A stretch of DNA of 20,347 bases from a virus. Positions 1,401-19,955 of the stretch are shown piece by piece. The translations under genes were made by a program, and so were the position numbers. The stretch is from the IMG/VR virus record IMGVR_UViG_3300020173_000077, positions 1 through 20,347 of that record; one strand, given 5' to 3'. Each line of letters begins with the position of its first letter. Position 1 is the stretch's first letter. The notes under the pieces were generated by a model that worked only from the letters and a program-made list of their open reading frames with translations, did not search any database and was not told where the DNA came from.

Positions 1401-2597
1401 TTAAATGAATGATTCAATGGTTTGAATATTTTCTTCAAATTCTATTGTTTGTTTCTTATTATCAGCAATACCAAAATCTGCTTCGCGACTATCTAATTTT
1501 CCATCAAGCCAATCTTTAATATTTAATGCCATGTCTGTAGCTGTACTAACAGGAACATTTTGACAAATCATATTAAGATTTCTTTTTCCTCCTTGAAGTT
1601 GAAAATCCTTTGGCATTTTCATAATCGCTAAACACTCTCTTATTGTAAGATATCTGTCTTCGTGTGGGTGTGTAAGGCACATTGGCATATGACCTACAAA
1701 AGCACCAATATAATCCTTTGGTATTTCGGTCAATTTACGCATAACATTTCCTCCAGCTTTTAGTTTTTTATGAACCTGTAAGCATCTTTCTGCTTTTTTG
1801 GGATAACCATTATTTTCCATCCAAACAGCAACTTTATCATATTCTATACCATGATTTTCTATATAATCCATAGGATTAATAGTTCTTTCAATCTTATCAA
1901 AGAATTGCCGATGTGTAATACCACCTTCAATTTCTTCTAAAACATATCTGTAAAAAGGATTCTCTGATGGTTTACCACTATTCGTCAATTGATTCATAGG
2001 ATCATCGTCTGAAACAAAAGCATTTAAAATAGTATCTTCAATTCTTTCATGCGGTCGATGGTGAAAACGCATATATGGAATTCGTTTTCCTTTCCAAAAG
2101 AAATAAAAAGATCTATCCCTAGTTTGGCTTAAGCCGTGCAATTTTGATTTTGTTTTGTATAAAAGTAAAGTATAACCATTTTCTTTTGCTAAATTTCTTA
2201 GTTTTTTTACAATAGGGCTACCCATCTTTGATGCAAGACGAGGGGCATTTTCTCCCCAAAAGACTTTAGGTTTAACTTCACCTAAAACATATTTTGCAGA
2301 TTCAACCATCCAATCATTTGCCTTATTGTCTGTTGAAGCTGATGGACTAAGAGAAGATAAACCAGCACATGGGCATACTGCATTTACAACATCTACATAA
2401 CTTTTCTTTTCATCACCTTCATCAATTAAATGATAAGGTACTTCATTGTTATAATGTTTTAGAAGCTGTGAGTCGTTTTCCTGAAAAGGAGAATATGATA
2501 AAATATATTCAGGTCTTTTTCCAAAGGCGTTTTCCATTGCAAGCGTTTCACCACCTATGAGTGGAACACATGAAGCATAGTTATATTTATTTTTCAT
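1401..2597 (-). CDS. C5-cytosine DNA methyltransferase homologue
   Basis: The 398-residue protein has most landmarks of DNA cytosine-5 methyltransferases in order. A motif I-like LIGGETLAMENAFG lies at about 13-26. The catalytic motif IV is PCAGLS, with the nucleophile at Cys77. Motif VI is ENA at 116-118, and motif VIII is QTRDR at 158-162 (QxRxR). Motif IX is LTIRECLAIM, and motif X is QNVPV. Two deviations stand out. The usual acidic/aromatic DLFxG start of motif I reads SCVPLIGG, and the acidic motif II residue that contacts the AdoMet ribose appears absent (ILSYSPFQEND). The chosen ATG at 2597 lies one base after the stop of the glucosyltransferase gene. A TTG at 2618 would add seven residues but overlaps that gene. 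Such an enzyme normally transfers a methyl group to C5 of cytosine, which should be blocked in hydroxymethylcytosine DNA. Its substrate here is unclear. Family confidence is high, activity uncertain. Confidence 0.85.
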   Translation of the reverse strand: MKNKYNYASCVPLIGGETLAMENAFGKRPEYILSYSPFQENDSQLLKHYNNEVPYHLIDEGDEKKSYVDVVNAVCPCAGLSSLSPSASTDNKANDWMVESAKYVLGEVKPKVFWGENAPRLASKMGSPIVKKLRNLAKENGYTLLLYKTKSKLHGLSQTRDRSFYFFWKGKRIPYMRFHHRPHERIEDTILNAFVSDDDPMNQLTNSGKPSENPFYRYVLEEIEGGITHRQFFDKIERTINPMDYIENHGIEYDKVAVWMENNGYPKKAERCLQVHKKLKAGGNVMRKLTEIPKDYIGAFVGHMPMCLTHPHEDRYLTIRECLAIMKMPKDFQLQGGKRNLNMICQNVPVSTATDMALNIKDWLDGKLDSREADFGIADNKKQTIEFEENIQTIESFI

Positions 2598-2598
2598 C

Positions 2599-3834
2599 TT
2601 ATACAAAAAACTCTTCAATATTTACAATACGTTTAGTTTCTTTATTTGTTTTTTTCACCTTATTGAAAAAATCATTAAAAGATGAATCAGGTGAGTTGTG
2701 AGAATAATAGTATTCATAAGCTTTATGTCTCCATTCATCCCGCATTATAGAATCTTTTCTTAGTTGATTGATTAACTCCATATTTTGCGTATGATCTGAA
2801 CCAACTTCTCCAAGCCAGATTGTTCCATTATCGTTATCAAAAGTCATTGGATTACCTGTCTGTAAATGATAGCAATGATCGCCATAAGACTTTCTAAATA
2901 TTGGAATGCATCCAGCCGCTACAATTTCCAGGTGAGTAAATTCAATAAAATTTTGAATGTATTCAGGTTGAAGATATGTTAGTTGAAAACCAAAAGCACA
3001 TTTAGATAATCTTTCAAGCATTTCAGTATATTTGTATGCTGAAAATACATAAGGTTTAGTGTTGTATTCTAATTTAAAGTTGAAGTCACTATCTGGATGA
3101 TGGAAATCAAATTTTTTACGTATATCTGCAAACTGAATTGATCGTTCCATTCCTTCTAATGTAAAAAGAAACCCTTGATTTTTTGCGTTGTTTTCATATA
3201 AGTCGAAAAGAACGTCAAACCCTTTCCAATACGCACTACGCCCAATCCATTTTAAATGATTTTCATCCTGATCTTCAATTGATTTCCAATATTTATTTTT
3301 AATCTCTGAAATATCAATACCATTACAGAAATTATATAGTGCTGCGTTTGTTCCAAGACTTCTACAATAATTCATAAAAGGACTCTTTGTAGAATAAGAA
3401 AATATAACATCAGACTTTTTAATTGTTTCATCAAGGAGTGAATTTCGTCGAATTGACATCATTTTATGATCATGTTGAATCATAACAAGCTTAGTGTTAA
3501 TATTATCAATAAGTTTGCTAAAGTTCTCAATGCAATCATCTGGATGACCTTTTGAAGGGAGAGAGCCAATAATCACCATATCAGCGTCCTTCGTGTCTTC
3601 AATAATATTATCAACACCATAGATGGTATCACCTCTCGAAGGCTTATTACCGAATTTTTGTTCAATTACATTTTCACCTAAATCATGAGATTTTGACCTA
3701 GTCCAACGCTTATCTTTAGTGGCATAAATTTTATAATCCCACCCTTGAGCTAATGCCCAATCTTTCATTTCTAAAGTAAAGCGAGTTACACCACAACCTT
3801 CGATGCCTCTACCCAATATATGTACAATTTTCAT
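2599..3834 (-). CDS. agt: DNA alpha-glucosyltransferase, T4 alpha-gt family
   Basis: This GT-B fold enzyme is expected to transfer glucose from UDP-glucose to 5-hydroxymethylcytosine in phage DNA, protecting it from host nucleases. The 411-residue product (T4 AGT is 400) resembles T4 AGT along its length from memory. The N-terminal ILGRGIEGCGVTRFTLE parallels T4 MARGLEGCGVTKFSLE. QHDHKMMSIRRNSLLDETI parallels T4's QHDHSVLSLRRN. WIGRSAYWKGFDVLFD parallels WIGRTTTWKGF. LEGMERS parallels MEGLERS. EMLERLSKCAFGFQL and EFTHLEIVAAGCIPIFRKS parallel the donor-binding C-terminal domain. The gene starts 9 nt after the Nmad1-like gene and ends one base before the methyltransferase homologue. The three probably form one operon driven from the promoter at 4186-4214. 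The linkage configuration (alpha or beta) is inferred from similarity only. Confidence 0.93.
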   Translation of the reverse strand: MKIVHILGRGIEGCGVTRFTLEMKDWALAQGWDYKIYATKDKRWTRSKSHDLGENVIEQKFGNKPSRGDTIYGVDNIIEDTKDADMVIIGSLPSKGHPDDCIENFSKLIDNINTKLVMIQHDHKMMSIRRNSLLDETIKKSDVIFSYSTKSPFMNYCRSLGTNAALYNFCNGIDISEIKNKYWKSIEDQDENHLKWIGRSAYWKGFDVLFDLYENNAKNQGFLFTLEGMERSIQFADIRKKFDFHHPDSDFNFKLEYNTKPYVFSAYKYTEMLERLSKCAFGFQLTYLQPEYIQNFIEFTHLEIVAAGCIPIFRKSYGDHCYHLQTGNPMTFDNDNGTIWLGEVGSDHTQNMELINQLRKDSIMRDEWRHKAYEYYYSHNSPDSSFNDFFNKVKKTNKETKRIVNIEEFFV

Positions 3835-3842
3835 GTGTGTTT

Positions 3843-4178
3843 TTATTTTTTTTCACGATTGAGAAAATCACGATCCGGACGCTGTCCTTCTATTTTTCCT
3901 CGTGAATACGCCACAGCAAATGACGCGTAATTGATCAAATCTTTTAGTGAGTCTTCAATCGACTCAAAGTTAGGTTCATATTCTGGATCATTCTCCATTG
4001 CTTCAATTACTGACCACAAACGAATTGTTTTCGTGTTAATCAATTCCATGATTGACATAACACCTCGAGGATAATAATCTGATTGCTTAATTCGTGAATT
4101 AGGGTTTTGATAATCCCGGGATTTTTTAATTTGAACTTCTGCGCATTCATTAAGCACTTTAATTGATTCCTTTTCCAT
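3843..4178 (-). CDS. Nmad1/DUF1599-like nucleotide-modification-associated protein
   Basis: The 111-residue, probably all-helical protein contains KKSRDYQNPN near residues 19-28, a central MSIMELINTKTIRLWSVIE, and SIEDSLKDLINYASFAVAY near 73-91. The pattern of a Lys/Asp-Tyr start, a lysine-arginine helix and a DSLxDLxNYA helix matches my recollection of DUF1599 (nucleotide modification associated domain 1). That family recurs beside thymidylate synthase-type and base-modifying genes in phages. Its biochemical activity is not established, and an NTP-pyrophosphatase-like role is possible. The ATG at 4178 is one or two bases from the predicted start of transcription, so the mRNA would be nearly leaderless. 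It lies between the nuclease-like gene and the glucosyltransferase, which fits a role in base modification. Confidence 0.7.
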   Translation of the reverse strand: MEKESIKVLNECAEVQIKKSRDYQNPNSRIKQSDYYPRGVMSIMELINTKTIRLWSVIEAMENDPEYEPNFESIEDSLKDLINYASFAVAYSRGKIEGQRPDRDFLNREKK

Positions 4179-4185
4179 ATACGAT

Positions 4186-4214
4186 ATTATACAATATTTA
4201 GTTCTTTTTGTAAA
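4186..4214 (-). promoter_or_regulatory. Sigma70-type promoter of the Nmad1-agt-methyltransferase operon
   Basis: -35 TTTACA (4209-4214), 17-bp spacer and -10 TATAAT (4186-4191). It lies in the last codons of the upstream nuclease-like gene. The predicted start is near 4179, one base before the ATG at 4178. Confidence 0.8.
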
Positions 4215-4636
4215 ACAAATTTTTTGCTATTATTATCCCAATCATATGATCCATGGAATGTATAATCACCTGTATTTTTATCGCCAATAAAAATGTATAA
4301 AATCTTAGGATAATTTCTCCATGATTTTGATGCCGCGCGATTTGCTCTTTTTAAGACATAAGGAACATAGTATTCTCCTTCAGTAGCTTTTACTTCAACA
4401 GGACTACCATTTGGGTGAATCACGTCTCTGTATTTACGGTCATCGTCAGTAAAACCACATTTTTCAATTAAGTAAACTTCTGGCGCATGACCATACAATG
4501 TAGTTTTAAATATTTCGACAAAAGTTCTATTTTTTCGAGTGCTTTCTTTAGAATGAATTTCTTCAGTTTCCTTTCTAGCTCTTTCAATATAGTAACTATG
4601 TTCTAAATCGTCGGCATTAAATTTAATATTAGTCAT
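4187..4636 (-). CDS. PD-(D/E)XK nuclease-like protein
   Basis: The 149-residue protein carries a pattern typical of restriction-type nucleases. An early acidic residue lies in GHAPEVYLIEK (Glu53). Asp71 follows in KYRDVIHPNGSP, then Glu81-Val-Lys83 in PVEVKATEGEYY, i.e. D-x9-ExK. The ExK strand is followed by a basic helix (LKRANRAASKSWRN) and a hydrophobic strand (KILYIFIGD), as in the core fold. No DNA-recognition domain is visible. The gene follows gp42 by 15 bp and lies within the hydroxymethylation/glucosylation cluster. A role in degrading unmodified host DNA, parallel to T4's cytosine-DNA endonucleases, is an inference from context. A structural or inactive member of the fold is the main alternative. 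Confidence 0.65.
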   Translation of the reverse strand: MTNIKFNADDLEHSYYIERARKETEEIHSKESTRKNRTFVEIFKTTLYGHAPEVYLIEKCGFTDDDRKYRDVIHPNGSPVEVKATEGEYYVPYVLKRANRAASKSWRNYPKILYIFIGDKNTGDYTFHGSYDWDNNSKKFVLQKELNIV

Positions 4637-4651
4637 AATATTCTATTTTAT

Positions 4652-5380
4652 CTATCCCATTGCCTTAGCCGCTAGAACATGAGCGCGATCCATACTTTCA
4701 GCTAATTCAATTTCAGATTCAATAAATTTAAAATGTCTTTCATAAACGTGAAGAGAGCCAACTTGCCATGTGATATCACCAATAGAATATTTGTTTTCAC
4801 CAAGTGTATTTAGATCTTTTACTAGCTTTTTTAAAACATACTTTTGCCAAGCATAGTCATTACGATATCCAAAGACAACATCATTTGATCGCATTTGAAC
4901 AATTGCGTGAACATAGTTATTACGCACAACATACTGAACACCATTAGTACAAATAAAATCAGACATACCATCAACATTGAAATCTTCATGCATCGAAGGG
5001 CGCTGATAAATCATAACAGCACGACGAGAATTAGGATCAACTAATAGTTGTTGAAGAACATTTTTATATTGCTCGTAATTGTTTTTGTGATAAATGAGAT
5101 ACCCATAGTTAGAATTTACTTTACCCTTAGTTGATGCAATTTGATTCCAAATCGCTGGTGTATCACCAGGAATGTTATAAACATATTGGCTTTTTGATTC
5201 GTACCAAGAGATTTCTCGGTTAATATAGTCTTGATTTGGGGAACCAAAGATTGCTGGTTTATCAGCAATAAATGAAGCACCAACCAATTCGATTGTTTTT
5301 ACACCTGTCTTATCTTGAACAAATTCTCCTTTTTTATAAAGGTCAATAAATGTTTCTTTAATGTCTATAACTTTTTGCAT
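4652..5380 (-). CDS. 42: dCMP hydroxymethylase (T4 gp42)
   Basis: This enzyme converts dCMP to 5-hydroxymethyl-dCMP using methylene-tetrahydrofolate, the committed step to hydroxymethylcytosine DNA. The 242-residue product (T4 gp42 is 246) matches gp42 closely: DKTGVKTIELVGASF, IPGDTPAIW, KGKVNSNYG, SRRAVMIYQRPSM, DFICTNGVQY and MRSNDVVFGYRNDYAWQKY. Cys144 corresponds to the catalytic Cys148 of T4. Asp175 in RNDYAW corresponds to T4 Asp179, which gives cytosine rather than uracil specificity and separates it from thymidylate synthase. I start at the ATG at 5380, which gives an N-terminus of T4-like length. A longer frame to 5446 would run through the promoter at 5388-5416. The predicted transcript begins about one base before this ATG. 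Confidence 0.96.
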   Translation of the reverse strand: MQKVIDIKETFIDLYKKGEFVQDKTGVKTIELVGASFIADKPAIFGSPNQDYINREISWYESKSQYVYNIPGDTPAIWNQIASTKGKVNSNYGYLIYHKNNYEQYKNVLQQLLVDPNSRRAVMIYQRPSMHEDFNVDGMSDFICTNGVQYVVRNNYVHAIVQMRSNDVVFGYRNDYAWQKYVLKKLVKDLNTLGENKYSIGDITWQVGSLHVYERHFKFIESEIELAESMDRAHVLAAKAMG

Positions 5381-5387
5381 GATAATA

Positions 5388-5416
5388 ATTCTACCACATT
5401 TTTTAGTGTTTGTAAA
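5388..5416 (-). promoter_or_regulatory. Sigma70-type promoter of gene 42
   Basis: -35 TTTACA (5411-5416), 17-bp spacer and -10 TAGAAT (5388-5393). It lies between the thyX stop and the gene 42 start. The predicted transcription start near 5381 is one base before the ATG. Confidence 0.8.
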
Positions 5417-5421
5417 TCTTT

Positions 5422-6051
5422 TTAGATAGTTCCTTTTGATTTCCAAGCACTAAAAGTTGCTTCAAAGGGATTGCCTTCAATATTCTCTACGAGCTTAAGC
5501 ATTTTCTCTGCAATTTCTCTGATTTCTTTTTGAGCATGTTCGCTATTACGAAGCTTCAAAAAGTTTCCAAATGAACGCATATTAAACATAATATCAGACT
5601 GAATCTTACTATTATAAGTCTTAAAGAAACGAGCGCTCTCTTTAGCACGTTTACGTCCAAGAGTATCTGTCAATTCACCTACACATTGGTGATAAAGCTC
5701 ATTGCCTTGCTGTGTGTAATGTGCTAATTTTTTTTGCCAATATTCAGACCAATCGTCTGGTACTATGAACTTGTCTTCTTTAAGCTCTTTGTAACGCGCT
5801 GACTCAGCATTGAGAGAGCTAATCCTATGCTTAAGAAGATGAATGTGGCTAGCAATATCACAATCCACAAGAAAATGCACAGTACCTTTTTCAAAGGGCG
5901 TTTCATGTCCCTCTCTCCATAGCATATCAATGAGTTTAGGTATGCGCTTCTTTTTATCATCAGTTAAGTCTCTTGATGTTGATGTCCAGGCACTACAGGC
6001 GATGACTTCATCTGATCCATAGTATCCCAATAATTTTACTGTATTAATCAT
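5422..6051 (-). CDS. thyX: FAD-dependent thymidylate synthase ThyX
   Basis: ThyX methylates dUMP to dTMP with methylene-tetrahydrofolate, FAD and NADPH, supplying thymidylate for phage replication. The 209-residue protein contains the ThyX signature as KHRISSLNAESARY at 74-87. The canonical RHR-x7-S becomes KHR-x7-S, with Ser84 and Arg86-Tyr87 retained. Also present are GHETPFEK (48-55) and the C-terminal MRSFGNFLKLRNSEHAQKEIREIA typical of the tetramer's FAD/dUMP site. T4 uses a ThyA-type enzyme (Td), so this is a non-homologous replacement. It lies directly upstream of gp42, which belongs to the ThyA fold. The ATG at 6051 has only a weak GGA upstream. It follows the 147-residue protein by 37 bp, and I see no strong promoter in that gap. 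Confidence 0.95.
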   Translation of the reverse strand: MINTVKLLGYYGSDEVIACSAWTSTSRDLTDDKKKRIPKLIDMLWREGHETPFEKGTVHFLVDCDIASHIHLLKHRISSLNAESARYKELKEDKFIVPDDWSEYWQKKLAHYTQQGNELYHQCVGELTDTLGRKRAKESARFFKTYNSKIQSDIMFNMRSFGNFLKLRNSEHAQKEIREIAEKMLKLVENIEGNPFEATFSAWKSKGTI

Positions 6052-8149: not shown

Positions 8150-9091
8150 TTACTCTATTTTAGAGGATTTTAGGGCAAAATCTATCGCTCGGGCCGCTTC
8201 GAGCTTTATAGGGCGGCCTTTATACCACCCTCCGCTTTCGTTGTCAATTTCTCTAACAATCGATTCAATTTCAATAGGACTAATAGGGTATTTCCTACGT
8301 ATTGCATTTGCAGCAATGCTCATCATAATACGATACATATGGTGGTACCATCCAGATTCGTTGATCGTTGAATATTCTGCCACAAGCTGCTTATTGACAA
8401 ATGGACAATCGCGATATGAAGACCACCTAATATCAGTGTTGGTCAATTTGCTCTCATAGTGCTTTTTGAGCTCTTTTTGGATTGCCTCTGGTAAGTGATC
8501 GCTCAATGTATTACCAGTACTACTCACAAAATCATATTTGTCCATCAGCGCAATAGGATCAAGAAATGGGCCCTCATGAGTGAAAATGAAATTATACGCA
8601 TTTGGATATTGCGCTGGAACATAATACATACGAGAGAGATCTTTTGTTTGTGGATCTCCAAGTGAGTTATACTCTTTATTCAATGCAAACCAAAGATGCT
8701 TAATCTTATCAGCCTTTACTTCTTGTGTAAGCGGGAAGACGATTCTGAATTTTGGTTTTTCTTTCGATGAAGATGCAGAGCTATAGCACACGAATCGATG
8801 ACCTTTAAAGGTTTCGATCGTTTCTTCGAATGAAGTATCATACTCATCAATGTCAAGGGCCACCCAACTAGCCCAAGAAATAACGTTTTTGTTGGCACGA
8901 GTAGTGCCCCTATCATAGGTAGCTGGTGTAATAAGCGGCGAGCCATCTTTTCTTTCTCCTTTTTTTGGTTTGTAACCTGGTTGTGTACTCAAAGAATATA
9001 ACAAATCTTCAAAACCTTGCCACGTTGAAAAACTCATTTTGCGATGAGTCTTATTGTCGAAGATAGATTTGAATATCGTAAGTGAATACAT
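8150..9091 (-). CDS. Primase-like protein of archaeo-eukaryotic/Rep type (tentative)
   Basis: The 313-residue protein resembles the N-terminal primase domain of plasmid and phage Rep or VirE-like proteins. WVALDIDEYD gives a DxD pair at 80 and 82 after a beta-strand. FVCYSSASSSKEKPKFRIVFPL (about 100-121) resembles the Ser-rich strand that normally carries the second catalytic residue, and KDLSRMYYVPAQYP (about 150-163) resembles the third motif with Asp151. The usual His of the middle motif is not evident (Arg116 sits there), so polymerase activity is doubtful. A helical C-terminal domain (MYRIMMSIAANAIRRKYPI, then EIESIVREIDNE) resembles primase C-terminal regions. No helicase domain follows. 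It starts one base after the MazG-like gene's stop, so the two are coupled, and it lies downstream of DNA polymerase. A T4-type gp61 primase is not in this window. Confidence 0.6.
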   Translation of the reverse strand: MYSLTIFKSIFDNKTHRKMSFSTWQGFEDLLYSLSTQPGYKPKKGERKDGSPLITPATYDRGTTRANKNVISWASWVALDIDEYDTSFEETIETFKGHRFVCYSSASSSKEKPKFRIVFPLTQEVKADKIKHLWFALNKEYNSLGDPQTKDLSRMYYVPAQYPNAYNFIFTHEGPFLDPIALMDKYDFVSSTGNTLSDHLPEAIQKELKKHYESKLTNTDIRWSSYRDCPFVNKQLVAEYSTINESGWYHHMYRIMMSIAANAIRRKYPISPIEIESIVREIDNESGGWYKGRPIKLEAARAIDFALKSSKIE

Positions 9092-17162: not shown

Positions 17163-17191
17163 ATTATACTGTATTTTAAGCTAATTGTAAA
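17163..17191 (-). promoter_or_regulatory. Sigma70-type promoter of the diphosphohydrolase-like gene
   Basis: -35 TTTACA (17186-17191), 17-bp spacer and -10 TATAAT (17163-17168), overlapping the end of gene 46. The predicted start falls on or beside the GTG start codon. Confidence 0.8.
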
Positions 17192-18897
17192 TCACTTTTT
17201 TTCATTTGGCTAAAATTATTCACCTTTTCAAATTCTATTTTAGCAGGAAATTTACCTTCTAGTAGATCCTGTTTATGGGAAATAATAAAAACGTTTGTTT
17301 CGTTTCCAAGTGTATAGAGAATTTTAATAAGGTTGTCAACTCCGTCTGCATCCATACTTGAATCAAATGTCTCGTCAAGAACCAAAAGGTTTGTATTGGC
17401 ACTATTTTTCATCTTAGCTATTTGTCGCCATGCAAAAAGAAGACTCAAATCAATCCTTTGTTTTTCACCTTCAGAAAATGAAGCATACGTAAATTCATCT
17501 CTATGACGAGATTTAATTGTTTCGTTAAATGAATCATCAAGATGGAAGAGAACAAAGAAGTCAAGTACCTGTAAATATTGGTTAATCAACTTATTCATAA
17601 TAGGGAGATACTGACGTATAACCTTTGTCTTAATTCCAGTATCTCTTAACAATTCACCAATGGCATCAAAATAAGAACTAATTTTTGCTTGTTCAACCCT
17701 AACAATATTAAGCTCTTCTTGCTTTTTTCTATCGTTCAAAAGAATTTCTTGCGCATCGCTACTATCTTGCTTATCTATCGTTTTTGAAAGTGATTGTATT
17801 CTATTTTTAAGAATATTAATCCGTGTTTGATTGTTAAGAATACTACTATTAACTTCGTTTAAATGAACTATTTTCTTATGTAGTACCTTAACATTTTCTT
17901 CAACTACCTTCAATTTTTCTTTTGCGGAATAATAGTCTTCATTTAGAGATTTGGCTTTTGCTTTACATTCATGGTTTTTATTCTTTTTAAGATCTTCAGA
18001 AATATCCTGTGAACAAGTAGGACAACAATCGTTTTCATCATAAAAAATAGATTCTTTTACAACATCATCCATTTTCTGTTTAAGTGCATTGATAGTTATA
18101 GCATAATCATGGCTAGTTGATGTTTCTTTATTATGTAATTTTAAACTTAAATCATAATCTTTGTCATATTCATCCTGTAAAGAAGTATTACTTTTTAGCA
18201 ATTCAGCAATTTCTTCGTTTAAATTTGCGATTTCTTTTTGACGCTTTTCTTCTTGTGACGAATCAATCTTTTTTAATTCATCAATATGTTTTGTTTGGAG
18301 ACTGATCCTTTCTTTAAGGATATTTAAACTGTTGTCGGTTTCTGCCATCTTATTTCTAAGATGTATTGTTTTTTCTTTTAGAACTCCATTCATTTTTGTG
18401 AAGATTCCAATATCAAGAAGATCTTCAATCACATTCCTCCTTTGATGCGAAGGTAATTGCATAAATGGAATAAAGTTTGATGAACCTAAAACAACAACCT
18501 GATGAAAAGATTTGTGATTCAGTTTAAGAATATTTTGCTCAATAAGTTTTTGATAATCACGACTATGTGATTCTTGATTTAACAAATTACCATTACGATA
18601 AACCTCAAAAATGTTAGGCTTTATCCCTCGAATAATTTTGTATTCTATAGATCCAACTGAAAACTCAATTGTAACTAAACAGTTTTTGTTGTTTATAGAA
18701 TTGACTAGCTGAGGTTTATTAATGCTCCTATGAGGTTTACCAAAAAGCGCATAGGATAGAGCATCTAACATAGTAGATTTACCAGCACCATTTGAACCGA
18801 CAATCAATGTTGATTTTTCACGGTTAAGATAAATTACAGATTCGTTATTTCCAGTTGATAAAAAATTCTTCCAAGTAAGTTTTTTAAATATAATCAT
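17176..18897 (-). CDS. 46: Recombination endonuclease subunit, SbcC/Rad50-like (T4 gp46)
   Basis: With gp47, gp46 resects DNA ends for recombination-dependent replication and takes part in host DNA degradation in T4. The 573-residue protein (T4 is 560) has Walker A VGSNGAGKST (33-42) and a long central coiled-coil region with a zinc hook CPTC (Cys292, Cys295). The ABC signature is SFSEGEKQRIDLSL (473-486), Walker B is LLVLDETFDSSMD (Asp508, Glu509), and the switch segment is IISHKQDL. The start codon shares one base with the gene 47 stop (TAATG), so the two subunits are translated together. The gene's last codons contain the next gene's promoter. Confidence 0.97.
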   Translation of the reverse strand: MIIFKKLTWKNFLSTGNNESVIYLNREKSTLIVGSNGAGKSTMLDALSYALFGKPHRSINKPQLVNSINNKNCLVTIEFSVGSIEYKIIRGIKPNIFEVYRNGNLLNQESHSRDYQKLIEQNILKLNHKSFHQVVVLGSSNFIPFMQLPSHQRRNVIEDLLDIGIFTKMNGVLKEKTIHLRNKMAETDNSLNILKERISLQTKHIDELKKIDSSQEEKRQKEIANLNEEIAELLKSNTSLQDEYDKDYDLSLKLHNKETSTSHDYAITINALKQKMDDVVKESIFYDENDCCPTCSQDISEDLKKNKNHECKAKAKSLNEDYYSAKEKLKVVEENVKVLHKKIVHLNEVNSSILNNQTRINILKNRIQSLSKTIDKQDSSDAQEILLNDRKKQEELNIVRVEQAKISSYFDAIGELLRDTGIKTKVIRQYLPIMNKLINQYLQVLDFFVLFHLDDSFNETIKSRHRDEFTYASFSEGEKQRIDLSLLFAWRQIAKMKNSANTNLLVLDETFDSSMDADGVDNLIKILYTLGNETNVFIISHKQDLLEGKFPAKIEFEKVNNFSQMKKSDLQLA

Positions 18898-19955
18898 TAT
18901 ATAGTGTCTTGTGCTTGCGCTTCAATCAATAGTTCTTGCATCATTTTTTTAAGAACATCTTGATTTAAATTAGTTTCTGTAGCATCGATATAGCTATTTA
19001 GCAATGTTGGAGTATCATCGACCTTGACGTCTGAATCATCGATTTTATCACCAGAATATTCATCCAAAGATTCAATGATACGCACTTCGTATGGGTTAAA
19101 GTCGTATACTTGTTCCATGAATTTATCAAAGATGTATAAATCAGTTTTATTAGTGACAACAATCTTTATATAGGTATTCTCGATATCACTCCGACTAAAT
19201 GTCGGTATTTTTGTTTCGTCATAATATACTTTTTGAAACAATACAATAGGATTACATACAGAAGTCAATTCCCTTGTATCAGTATCTAAAATGTGAAAGT
19301 GCTTAGGATCATTTGCGTCTGACCAAGTTAATTCATATTGAGTTCCAAGGTAAGTGACATTTCCTTCAACGCTTTTTGTGTGATAATGACCTGAATAAAC
19401 AGCATCATAACGATTAAATAAGCTCTTATCCATACCATGAGATTTTATATTTGCATTACCCATGTACTTAAATCCTCCTAATTCAAGGTGGCCCATAAGA
19501 ATTGAAGCATTTGAATTTTGAATAAAATCCATGCATTCTTCTTCATTTTCAGGACAAATCCATGGAAGAAAGCCAATTCCTAATCCATCGAATTTTTTTA
19601 TTGTTGGGTCAGTATGTATATTAATACGATCATTATATTTTTCCAGTATTAATTCTAAAGAATTTAGACTATTTGTATTTTTGTAATAAACGTCATGATT
19701 TCCTGGAATGATATCCATGTAAATATCATTATCATAAAGCTTACTAATAAATGTATCATAGTTATGTTTTAACACTTTATAATTTACGAATTTACGATGA
19801 TCAAAATAATCTCCGAGGTGAATTATGTCTCTGATACCATTATCATTTAAGTATGGAAAAAAAACTTCCTCGAAAAAACGACGAGAATAATTCAAATATA
19901 TATCAGACCCATTTTTAACACCAAAATGAGTATCATTTATAAGAGCTATCTTCAT
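18897..19955 (-). CDS. 47: Recombination nuclease subunit, SbcD/Mre11-like (T4 gp47)
   Basis: The 352-residue protein (T4 is 339) is the metallophosphoesterase partner of gp46. Metal-binding motifs appear in order: NDTHFGV (Asp8, His10), HLGDYFDHR (Asp49), PGNHDVYY (Asn86, His87), MGHLELGG (His156) and SGHYHTK (His190, His192). A C-terminal region rich in acidic residues follows, which in the family binds the Rad50-like subunit. The ATG at 19955 comes one base after the gp55 stop, and the stop overlaps the gp46 start. This gives a compact 55-47-46 operon. No Shine-Dalgarno is visible, so coupling probably drives initiation. Confidence 0.96.
   Translation of the reverse strand: MKIALINDTHFGVKNGSDIYLNYSRRFFEEVFFPYLNDNGIRDIIHLGDYFDHRKFVNYKVLKHNYDTFISKLYDNDIYMDIIPGNHDVYYKNTNSLNSLELILEKYNDRINIHTDPTIKKFDGLGIGFLPWICPENEEECMDFIQNSNASILMGHLELGGFKYMGNANIKSHGMDKSLFNRYDAVYSGHYHTKSVEGNVTYLGTQYELTWSDANDPKHFHILDTDTRELTSVCNPIVLFQKVYYDETKIPTFSRSDIENTYIKIVVTNKTDLYIFDKFMEQVYDFNPYEVRIIESLDEYSGDKIDDSDVKVDDTPTLLNSYIDATETNLNQDVLKKMMQELLIEAQAQDTI

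Follow-up and report, generated by a model that had tools for sequence, protein, structure and literature searches.

That cytosine-specific nucleases degrade host DNA is a classical part of T4 biology, established in coliphages and phages closely related to them. T4 DenB (endonuclease IV) cuts DNA that contains cytosine, mainly when it is single-stranded, and spares hydroxymethylcytosine DNA; to our knowledge it has no Pfam family. In T4, endonucleases II and IV start the breakdown of cytosine-containing host DNA, DenB by cutting DNA that contains cytosine; the gp46/47 exonuclease completes host DNA breakdown in a second, non-cytosine-specific step, and hydroxymethylcytosine protects the phage DNA (PMC6071114). 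The denB gene has the "same distribution as gene 42", whereas that of denA is wider (PMC2993671), and denB has been taken as an indicator of modified bases (PMC8056088).

The window analysed here, a whole virus record of 20.3 kb, derives from an uncultured T4-like phage, probably of marine habitat. T4-like replication genes are present, and the nearest GenBank phages have patches of polymerase or UvsX in common with the window and nothing more. Our subject is a 149-aa protein with an ATG start, labelled NUC (Table 1), whose gene lies 15 nt from gp42 on one side and 8 nt from a DUF1599-like gene on the other, the three being tightly packed in the same orientation. The gp42 neighbour matches T4 dCMP hydroxymethylase (1b49) at E 1.9e-86, whereas its best match to a thymidylate synthase reaches 6e-10. 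Thymidylate synthases carry Asn at a position where Asp marks the dCMP-type enzymes of this family; the neighbour has the Asp, in the motif GYRNDYAW, and so do 68 of 68 homologues with sequence at that site. Judged by sequence, it is a true gp42, its actual start probably being an internal ATG at about 5380. The C5-methyltransferase-like gene of the window recurs beside AGT and UvsX in phages whose cytosine is already hydroxymethylated as a nucleotide.

Table 1. Position of NUC, its predicted functional parts and neighbouring genes in the window
Feature	Coordinates	Strand	Evidence
NUC, predicted PD-(D/E)XK nuclease, probable compact remote homologue of T4 DenB (endonuclease IV)	4187..4636	-	ORF, homologues, conservation, structure prediction, DenB bridge
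Predicted catalytic codon stretch: E53 (4478-4480), D71 (4424-4426), E81 (4394-4396), K83 (4388-4390)	4388..4480	-	Conservation and model
NUC N-terminal motif I-(H/F)-x-K-x-S-T-R-x-x-R, residues 15-37, ahead of the predicted catalytic helix	4526..4594 (limits approximate)	-	Alignments
dCMP hydroxymethylase, T4 gp42 homologue	4652..5446	-	Match to 1b49
DUF1599 / "nucleotide modification associated domain 1"-like protein	3843..4178	-	PF07659 E 0.022; phrog_1485 E 7e-12
DNA alpha-glucosyltransferase (AGT)	2599..3834	-	PF11440 E 2.1e-59
C5-cytosine methyltransferase-like protein	1401..2618	-	PF00145 E 2.5e-18
Primase-like gene, census anchor; adjoins NUC in most relatives	8150..9091	-	phrog_9765 (DNA primase) E 7e-54
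gp46/gp47 recombination exonuclease genes, whose products would likely complete the breakdown of nicked DNA	17176..19955	-	Named from ORF translations

Iterated scans of IMG/VR recovered 3, 8, 79 and then 124 relatives, and dN/dS of NUC is ~0.1–0.16 against L005/L006; on these two grounds we regard NUC as a real gene. The E-x17-D-x9-ExK pattern that the first-pass annotation had read in this ORF is present, as E53-x17-D71-x9-E81-x-K83. In a single sequence such a motif is weak evidence, because a permissive regular expression of this type also matches ~13–20% of shuffled NUC-family proteins. All 57 non-redundant homologues have E53, D71 and K83, and E81 is kept in 56 and replaced by D in the remaining one; E23, I27, R37, G49, L56, D64 and T85 are invariant as well. 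The invariant I27 and R37 fall in the N-terminal motif I-(H/F)-x-K-x-S-T-R-x-x-R, which NUC has in common with the DenB-like bridge proteins described below (phmmer of L231 against L097; bridge alignment). The closest relative (L001:6001-6450) differs from NUC at 14 nucleotides (dN 0.039, dS 0.006). Almost all of these differences alter the amino acid, and nine fall in codons 144–148, while gp42, DUF1599 and AGT are almost unchanged between the same two; this pattern suggests that NUC has either evolved rapidly in recent time or undergone a local indel event at its 3' end.

Sequence searches of Pfam, NCBIfam, PADLOC and the PDB with NUC gave nothing usable, and matches to TaqI_C, Lipase and similar Pfam-type entries were below cut-off and are attributed to chance. 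PHROG 2095, a family of unknown function, matches residues 38–86 (E 8e-4) and gave no further lead. Using tblastn against GenBank phages, three NUC members found no relative and a fourth only chance matches; a scan of genome contigs for NUC relatives returned none, and the NUC profile did not match T4, GAP32 and the other genomes it was run against. The family is new to the libraries searched: it is absent from Pfam, NCBIfam and 50,697 phage records and has no convincing PHROG. The proposed strategy itself is already known, being that of T4.

The predicted structure of NUC is that of a PD-(D/E)XK nuclease with a PvuII-like core. In the AlphaFold2 model (43 sequences; mean pLDDT 92.5, pTM 0.87), E53 lies in helix 39–60, D71 stands right before a short strand and E81 and K83 are in strand 79–85, followed by helix 88–103 and strands 112–119 and 124–134. 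The elements are thus predicted in the alpha-beta order expected for PD-(D/E)XK enzymes, with the motif at the edge of the central sheet. The best PDB matches are mostly PD-(D/E)XK proteins (NhoI, RecE, SSO0001, PvuII and lambda exonuclease), each individually weak (best Foldseek E 0.008), and with a second aligner, VIA, influenza PA endonuclease, Eco15I and DXO also appear, at a Z (about 7) no higher than background. Influenza PA-N and DXO head the VIA list, and we read them as the common superfamily core at that background. NUC resembles the PvuII-like type II enzymes (PvuII, NhoI, the N-terminal domain of Eco15I, DpnI) in its predicted catalytic-core fold, but it has no detectable sequence relation to them and no linked cognate methyltransferase, and the structural scores are near background. 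The proposal that this ORF encodes a PD-(D/E)XK nuclease is supported by conservation in the 57 homologues and by the predicted fold; neither a fold devoid of the core nor loss of the acidic residues emerged from structure prediction and the homologue search.

Comparison with T4 DenB was undertaken because the NUC model matched the "DNA endonuclease IV" of phage OLB35 in BFVD (E 0.077). Four residues (E62, D89, E102 and K104, T4 numbering) are invariant in 12 DenB proteins, and all four align with those of NUC in a direct profile comparison that is weak (P 0.0014; score 27.6 vs a shuffle maximum of 22.8). The DenB PHROG (1360) gave no match when searched with NUC. The two families are linked through bridge proteins, L231 and L225, which came from loci picked by the primase-like gene alone. 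The T4 DenB profile matches both (2.6e-12 and 1.3e-6, respectively), and L231 alone, among 11,756 ORFs, retrieves DenB homologues at 6.6e-8 and a NUC member at 7.9e-5; an iterated profile started from L231 recovers the whole NUC family. Profile comparison gives P 3.6e-12 between DenB and the bridge and P 3.1e-6 between NUC and the bridge (score 43.6 vs ≤20.8 in 60 column shuffles), the best NUC-bridge alignment covering residues 11–88, mainly the N-terminal half, with the ExK motif two columns out of register. The L231 model (pLDDT 87) has the secondary-structure order of the NUC model, and most of the best BFVD neighbours of NUC recur in its list, the OLB35 protein among them.

Genomic position points in the same direction. 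A targeted scan yielded 14 DenB-like loci, of which 13 were new to the set, each with the gene immediately upstream of DUF1599-gp42 or DUF1599-x-gp42; the 13 bridge-protein loci and the founding locus L225 all have it in the slot that NUC occupies, between the primase-like gene and gp42. One DenB-like slot protein (L275:5980-6552) keeps the Asp and has lost the ExK (FDCISQ), and may be inactive or altered in function. NUC has the four predicted catalytic residues of DenB in the same order, is joined to it by bridge proteins whose genes sit in the same slot, and has a distribution nested in that of gene 42, as published for denB. However, NUC is shorter (149 aa vs 185 aa), has D-x9-ExK where DenB has D-x12-ExK, and adjoins gp42, whereas denB in T4 adjoins rIIB. 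On this sequence evidence, NUC is probably a short, highly diverged member of the T4 DenB family, and the first-pass idea of an analogue from a family different from T4 endonuclease IV is probably wrong. By the same comparison T4 DenB is itself indicated as a PD-(D/E)XK enzyme, with E62, D89, E102 and K104 as its predicted catalytic residues.

The most constant feature of the NUC neighbourhood is gp42. The usual gene order is polymerase, MazG-like, primase-like, NUC, DUF1599, gp42 and dCMP deaminase, sometimes AGT and C5-methyltransferase, then UvsX. The placement between gp42 and the glucosyltransferase noted at first holds in this window, but not across relatives, in which NUC is regularly accompanied by the primase-like gene, DUF1599 and gp42 and the glucosyltransferase is often absent. 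Among 17 long NUC contigs, 15 carry a thymidylate-synthase-family gene, the other two (L033, L043) ending 1–1.5 kb past NUC, whereas AGT is on five and was found on none of the other 12. Sufficient flanking sequence was available for 30 NUC loci. At 26 of these a close gp42 lies near NUC, and at L094 it lies at a greater distance on the same contig; L022 and L032 are without the usual gp42 yet encode a second member of the thymidylate synthase family that carries Asp at the dCMP position. Altogether, 29 of the 30 have gp42 or a dCMP-type protein of this family on the contig; at L091, none was found on the stretch examined. The protein in the usual place of gp42 in one NUC clade (L022:8906-9640, L021:6717-7451, L032:9867-10601; PF00303 E 2.5e-7, Asp at the dCMP position in SCDVVRHLHNDLFFA) is possibly a different dCMP-modifying enzyme.

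A census anchored on the primase-like gene gave the same picture. Most contigs are fragments, and 36 dereplicated loci reach UvsX; counts are given for these because L160, called gp42-negative in the census, has a thymidylate-synthase-family gene elsewhere on its contig. NUC occurs in 7 of 19 gp42-positive and 0 of 17 gp42-negative loci (Fisher p 0.008) and, with less complete loci included, NUC or DenB occurs in 9/28 against 0/24 (p 0.002), both p values being optimistic, as the loci come from related phages. Whole contigs of the gp42-negative group held no NUC, apart from a weak match to a slot protein in L151 (type C, below). In the gp42-negative relatives L104 (phage C48C1), L176, L177, L183 and L189, genes resembling nucleotide-sugar epimerase and UDP-glucose dehydrogenase follow the primase-like gene in place of the nuclease and gp42. 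The NUC family is nested within gene-42-positive phages, in agreement with the published denB distribution (PMC2993671) and with the view of denB as a sign of modified bases (PMC8056088). Of the flanking modification enzymes proposed as self-protection, gp42, which would supply hydroxymethylcytosine, is the invariant partner and the glucosyltransferase is not; since the latter is optional in NUC phages, being often absent from the sequence available, protection likely comes from the hydroxymethyl group itself. The suggested role against unmodified-cytosine DNA, with base modification as the shield, draws support from this linkage to a predicted dCMP hydroxymethylase.

The slot often holds other nuclease-like proteins in gp42-positive loci without NUC. 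Type B (PD-(D/E)XK-like; L171, L166, L203) and type C (E-D-ExKxQ; L216, L220, L222, L224, L229, L167 and the gp42-negative L151) resemble NUC in motif, slot and mostly gp42-positive setting, and have marginal DenB PHROG matches (E 0.003 and 0.05), but they are separate sequence families. Types D (L126, L128) and E (L174) show a motif in few sequences. A GIY-YIG slot protein in L222 matches PHROG 1111 at E 9.4e-7, and this PHROG is that of T4 denA, as checked on T4 denA. NUC resembles T4 DenA (endonuclease II) in its proposed task of starting cytosine-DNA breakdown, and L222 has its DenA-like protein in the same slot; however, DenA has a GIY-YIG catalytic fold and NUC has the PD-(D/E)XK motif and predicted fold, with no phrog_1111 match that would give it a GIY-YIG identity. 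Further proteins were seen around the slot: a GIY-YIG-like protein with a weak Eco29kI match (L229:8211-8657; PF09517 E 0.0016) lies right before the type C protein of that gp42-positive locus, giving two nucleases in one slot; a DnaQ-like 3'-5' exonuclease (L125:11631-12326; FVDLETTGLD motif) follows gp42 in a locus without NUC; and the stretch from the primase-like gene to DUF1599 holds, in one locus, a zinc-finger protein with a PDFYL...K motif (L150:4694-5377) that may be a homing-type nuclease.

A blind scan of the slot with a permissive motif found a candidate in 15 of 19 gp42-positive against 3 of 17 gp42-negative loci (p 6e-4), a difference that is weaker per ORF than per locus, as gp42-negative slots offered 22 eligible ORFs against 36. 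The gp42-positive loci L125, L149, L211 and L259 have a slot without a recognised nuclease. Strict gp42 linkage of all slot nucleases is contradicted by L151 (type C) and L253 (GIY-YIG), both gp42-negative; we keep this claim for NUC/DenB only. The variety of occupants suggests that slot nucleases replaced one another repeatedly. More tentatively, and as a possibility that we would not yet favour, the slot may be, in T4-like phages, a replacement hotspot at which five or more nuclease families, distantly related or unrelated, take turns (NUC, DenB, types B to E, DenA-like GIY-YIG), all of which would tell host from phage DNA by the hydroxymethyl mark. It would then be a restriction-modification cassette in inverted form: the phage would mark its own DNA and cleave whatever lacks the mark, and NUC would possibly be a sequence-specific double-strand cutter.

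Several other explanations of NUC can be weighed against this evidence. NUC might have the proposed fold and role while its kinship with DenB is limited to the PD-(D/E)XK core, having been recruited independently into the same slot. The slot clearly swaps nucleases (types B, C, D, E and GIY-YIG), NUC and DenB match weakly when compared directly, and type C, which is unrelated, has a match to NUC as well, over 17 columns around the motif (P 4.5e-4). Nevertheless, the NUC-bridge match includes the N-terminal region outside the motif and scores far above shuffles, and the L231 profile gathers the entire NUC family, so that we consider independent recruitment rather unlikely. Less probable again is a structure-specific recombination nuclease, for instance a Holliday-junction resolvase or a flap nuclease, that would sit with polymerase, primase and gp42 as a member of the replication cluster and have no connection with cytosine modification. 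NUC does adjoin replication genes, small PD-(D/E)XK proteins include Hjc-type resolvases, Hjc is listed among the structural matches of the DenB-like bridge model (Z 5.7; in this model's list only), and the resolvase role appears vacant, as the T4 endonuclease VII family (PF02945) was found on no NUC contig searched, including the 123 kb G001. However, the phrog_843 match is negligible (E 0.18, 1 of 43 NUC members), and the slot is common to DenB and DenA-like proteins. A core recombination enzyme, moreover, should not track gp42, yet NUC is absent from all 17 gp42-negative and from 12 of 19 gp42-positive loci whose cluster is otherwise the same.

The resemblance of the model to restriction enzymes raises two further readings. 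NUC could be the restriction enzyme of a phage type II pair with the C5-methyltransferase-like gene, acting against competing phages or for genome retention; its fold matches include PvuII-like, NhoI and Eco15I restriction enzymes, and the PF00145 methyltransferase is two genes away. The two are unlinked across the census (methyltransferase in 3 of 7 NUC-positive loci vs 7 of 12 gp42-positive loci without NUC), the constant partner being gp42, and we hold such a pair to be very unlikely. Still more improbable is a modification-dependent nuclease like NhoI, Eco15I or DpnI, cutting modified DNA of rival phages or unglucosylated progeny. These three methylation-dependent enzymes are among the top solved-structure matches of both the NUC and L231 models, but the similarity is slight (Foldseek E 0.008; VIA Z about 7, as is common in the background) and reflects a shared core of PvuII type. 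Cutting hydroxymethylcytosine would also be self-destructive in NUC phages in which no glucosyltransferase was found (12 of 17 contigs).

We therefore favour, as likely, the reading of NUC as a metal-dependent PD-(D/E)XK DNA endonuclease, probably a diverged DenB-family member, that would cut ordinary-cytosine DNA while hydroxymethylcytosine spares the phage genome. The gene itself, its conserved catalytic residues, its predicted fold, its linkage to gp42 and the slot it has in common with DenB homologues are the observations from which we infer DNA cleavage, cytosine selectivity and host-DNA degradation. In the proposed scheme, the phage would build its genome with 5-hydroxymethylcytosine via gp42 and, in this phage, then glucosylate it. 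NUC would take the part of endonuclease IV and cut DNA that lacks the modification, the host chromosome included; the resulting fragments would be degraded, probably by gp46/47, and the released nucleotides would be reused, phage DNA being spared by the hydroxymethyl group on its cytosines.

The NUC family suggests that the strategy described for T4 is also followed in abundant uncultured aquatic T4-like phages. Additionally, the slot gives a place in which to find further self/non-self nucleases, and if its occupants differ in sequence preference, they may provide useful reagents that spare hydroxymethylcytosine DNA.
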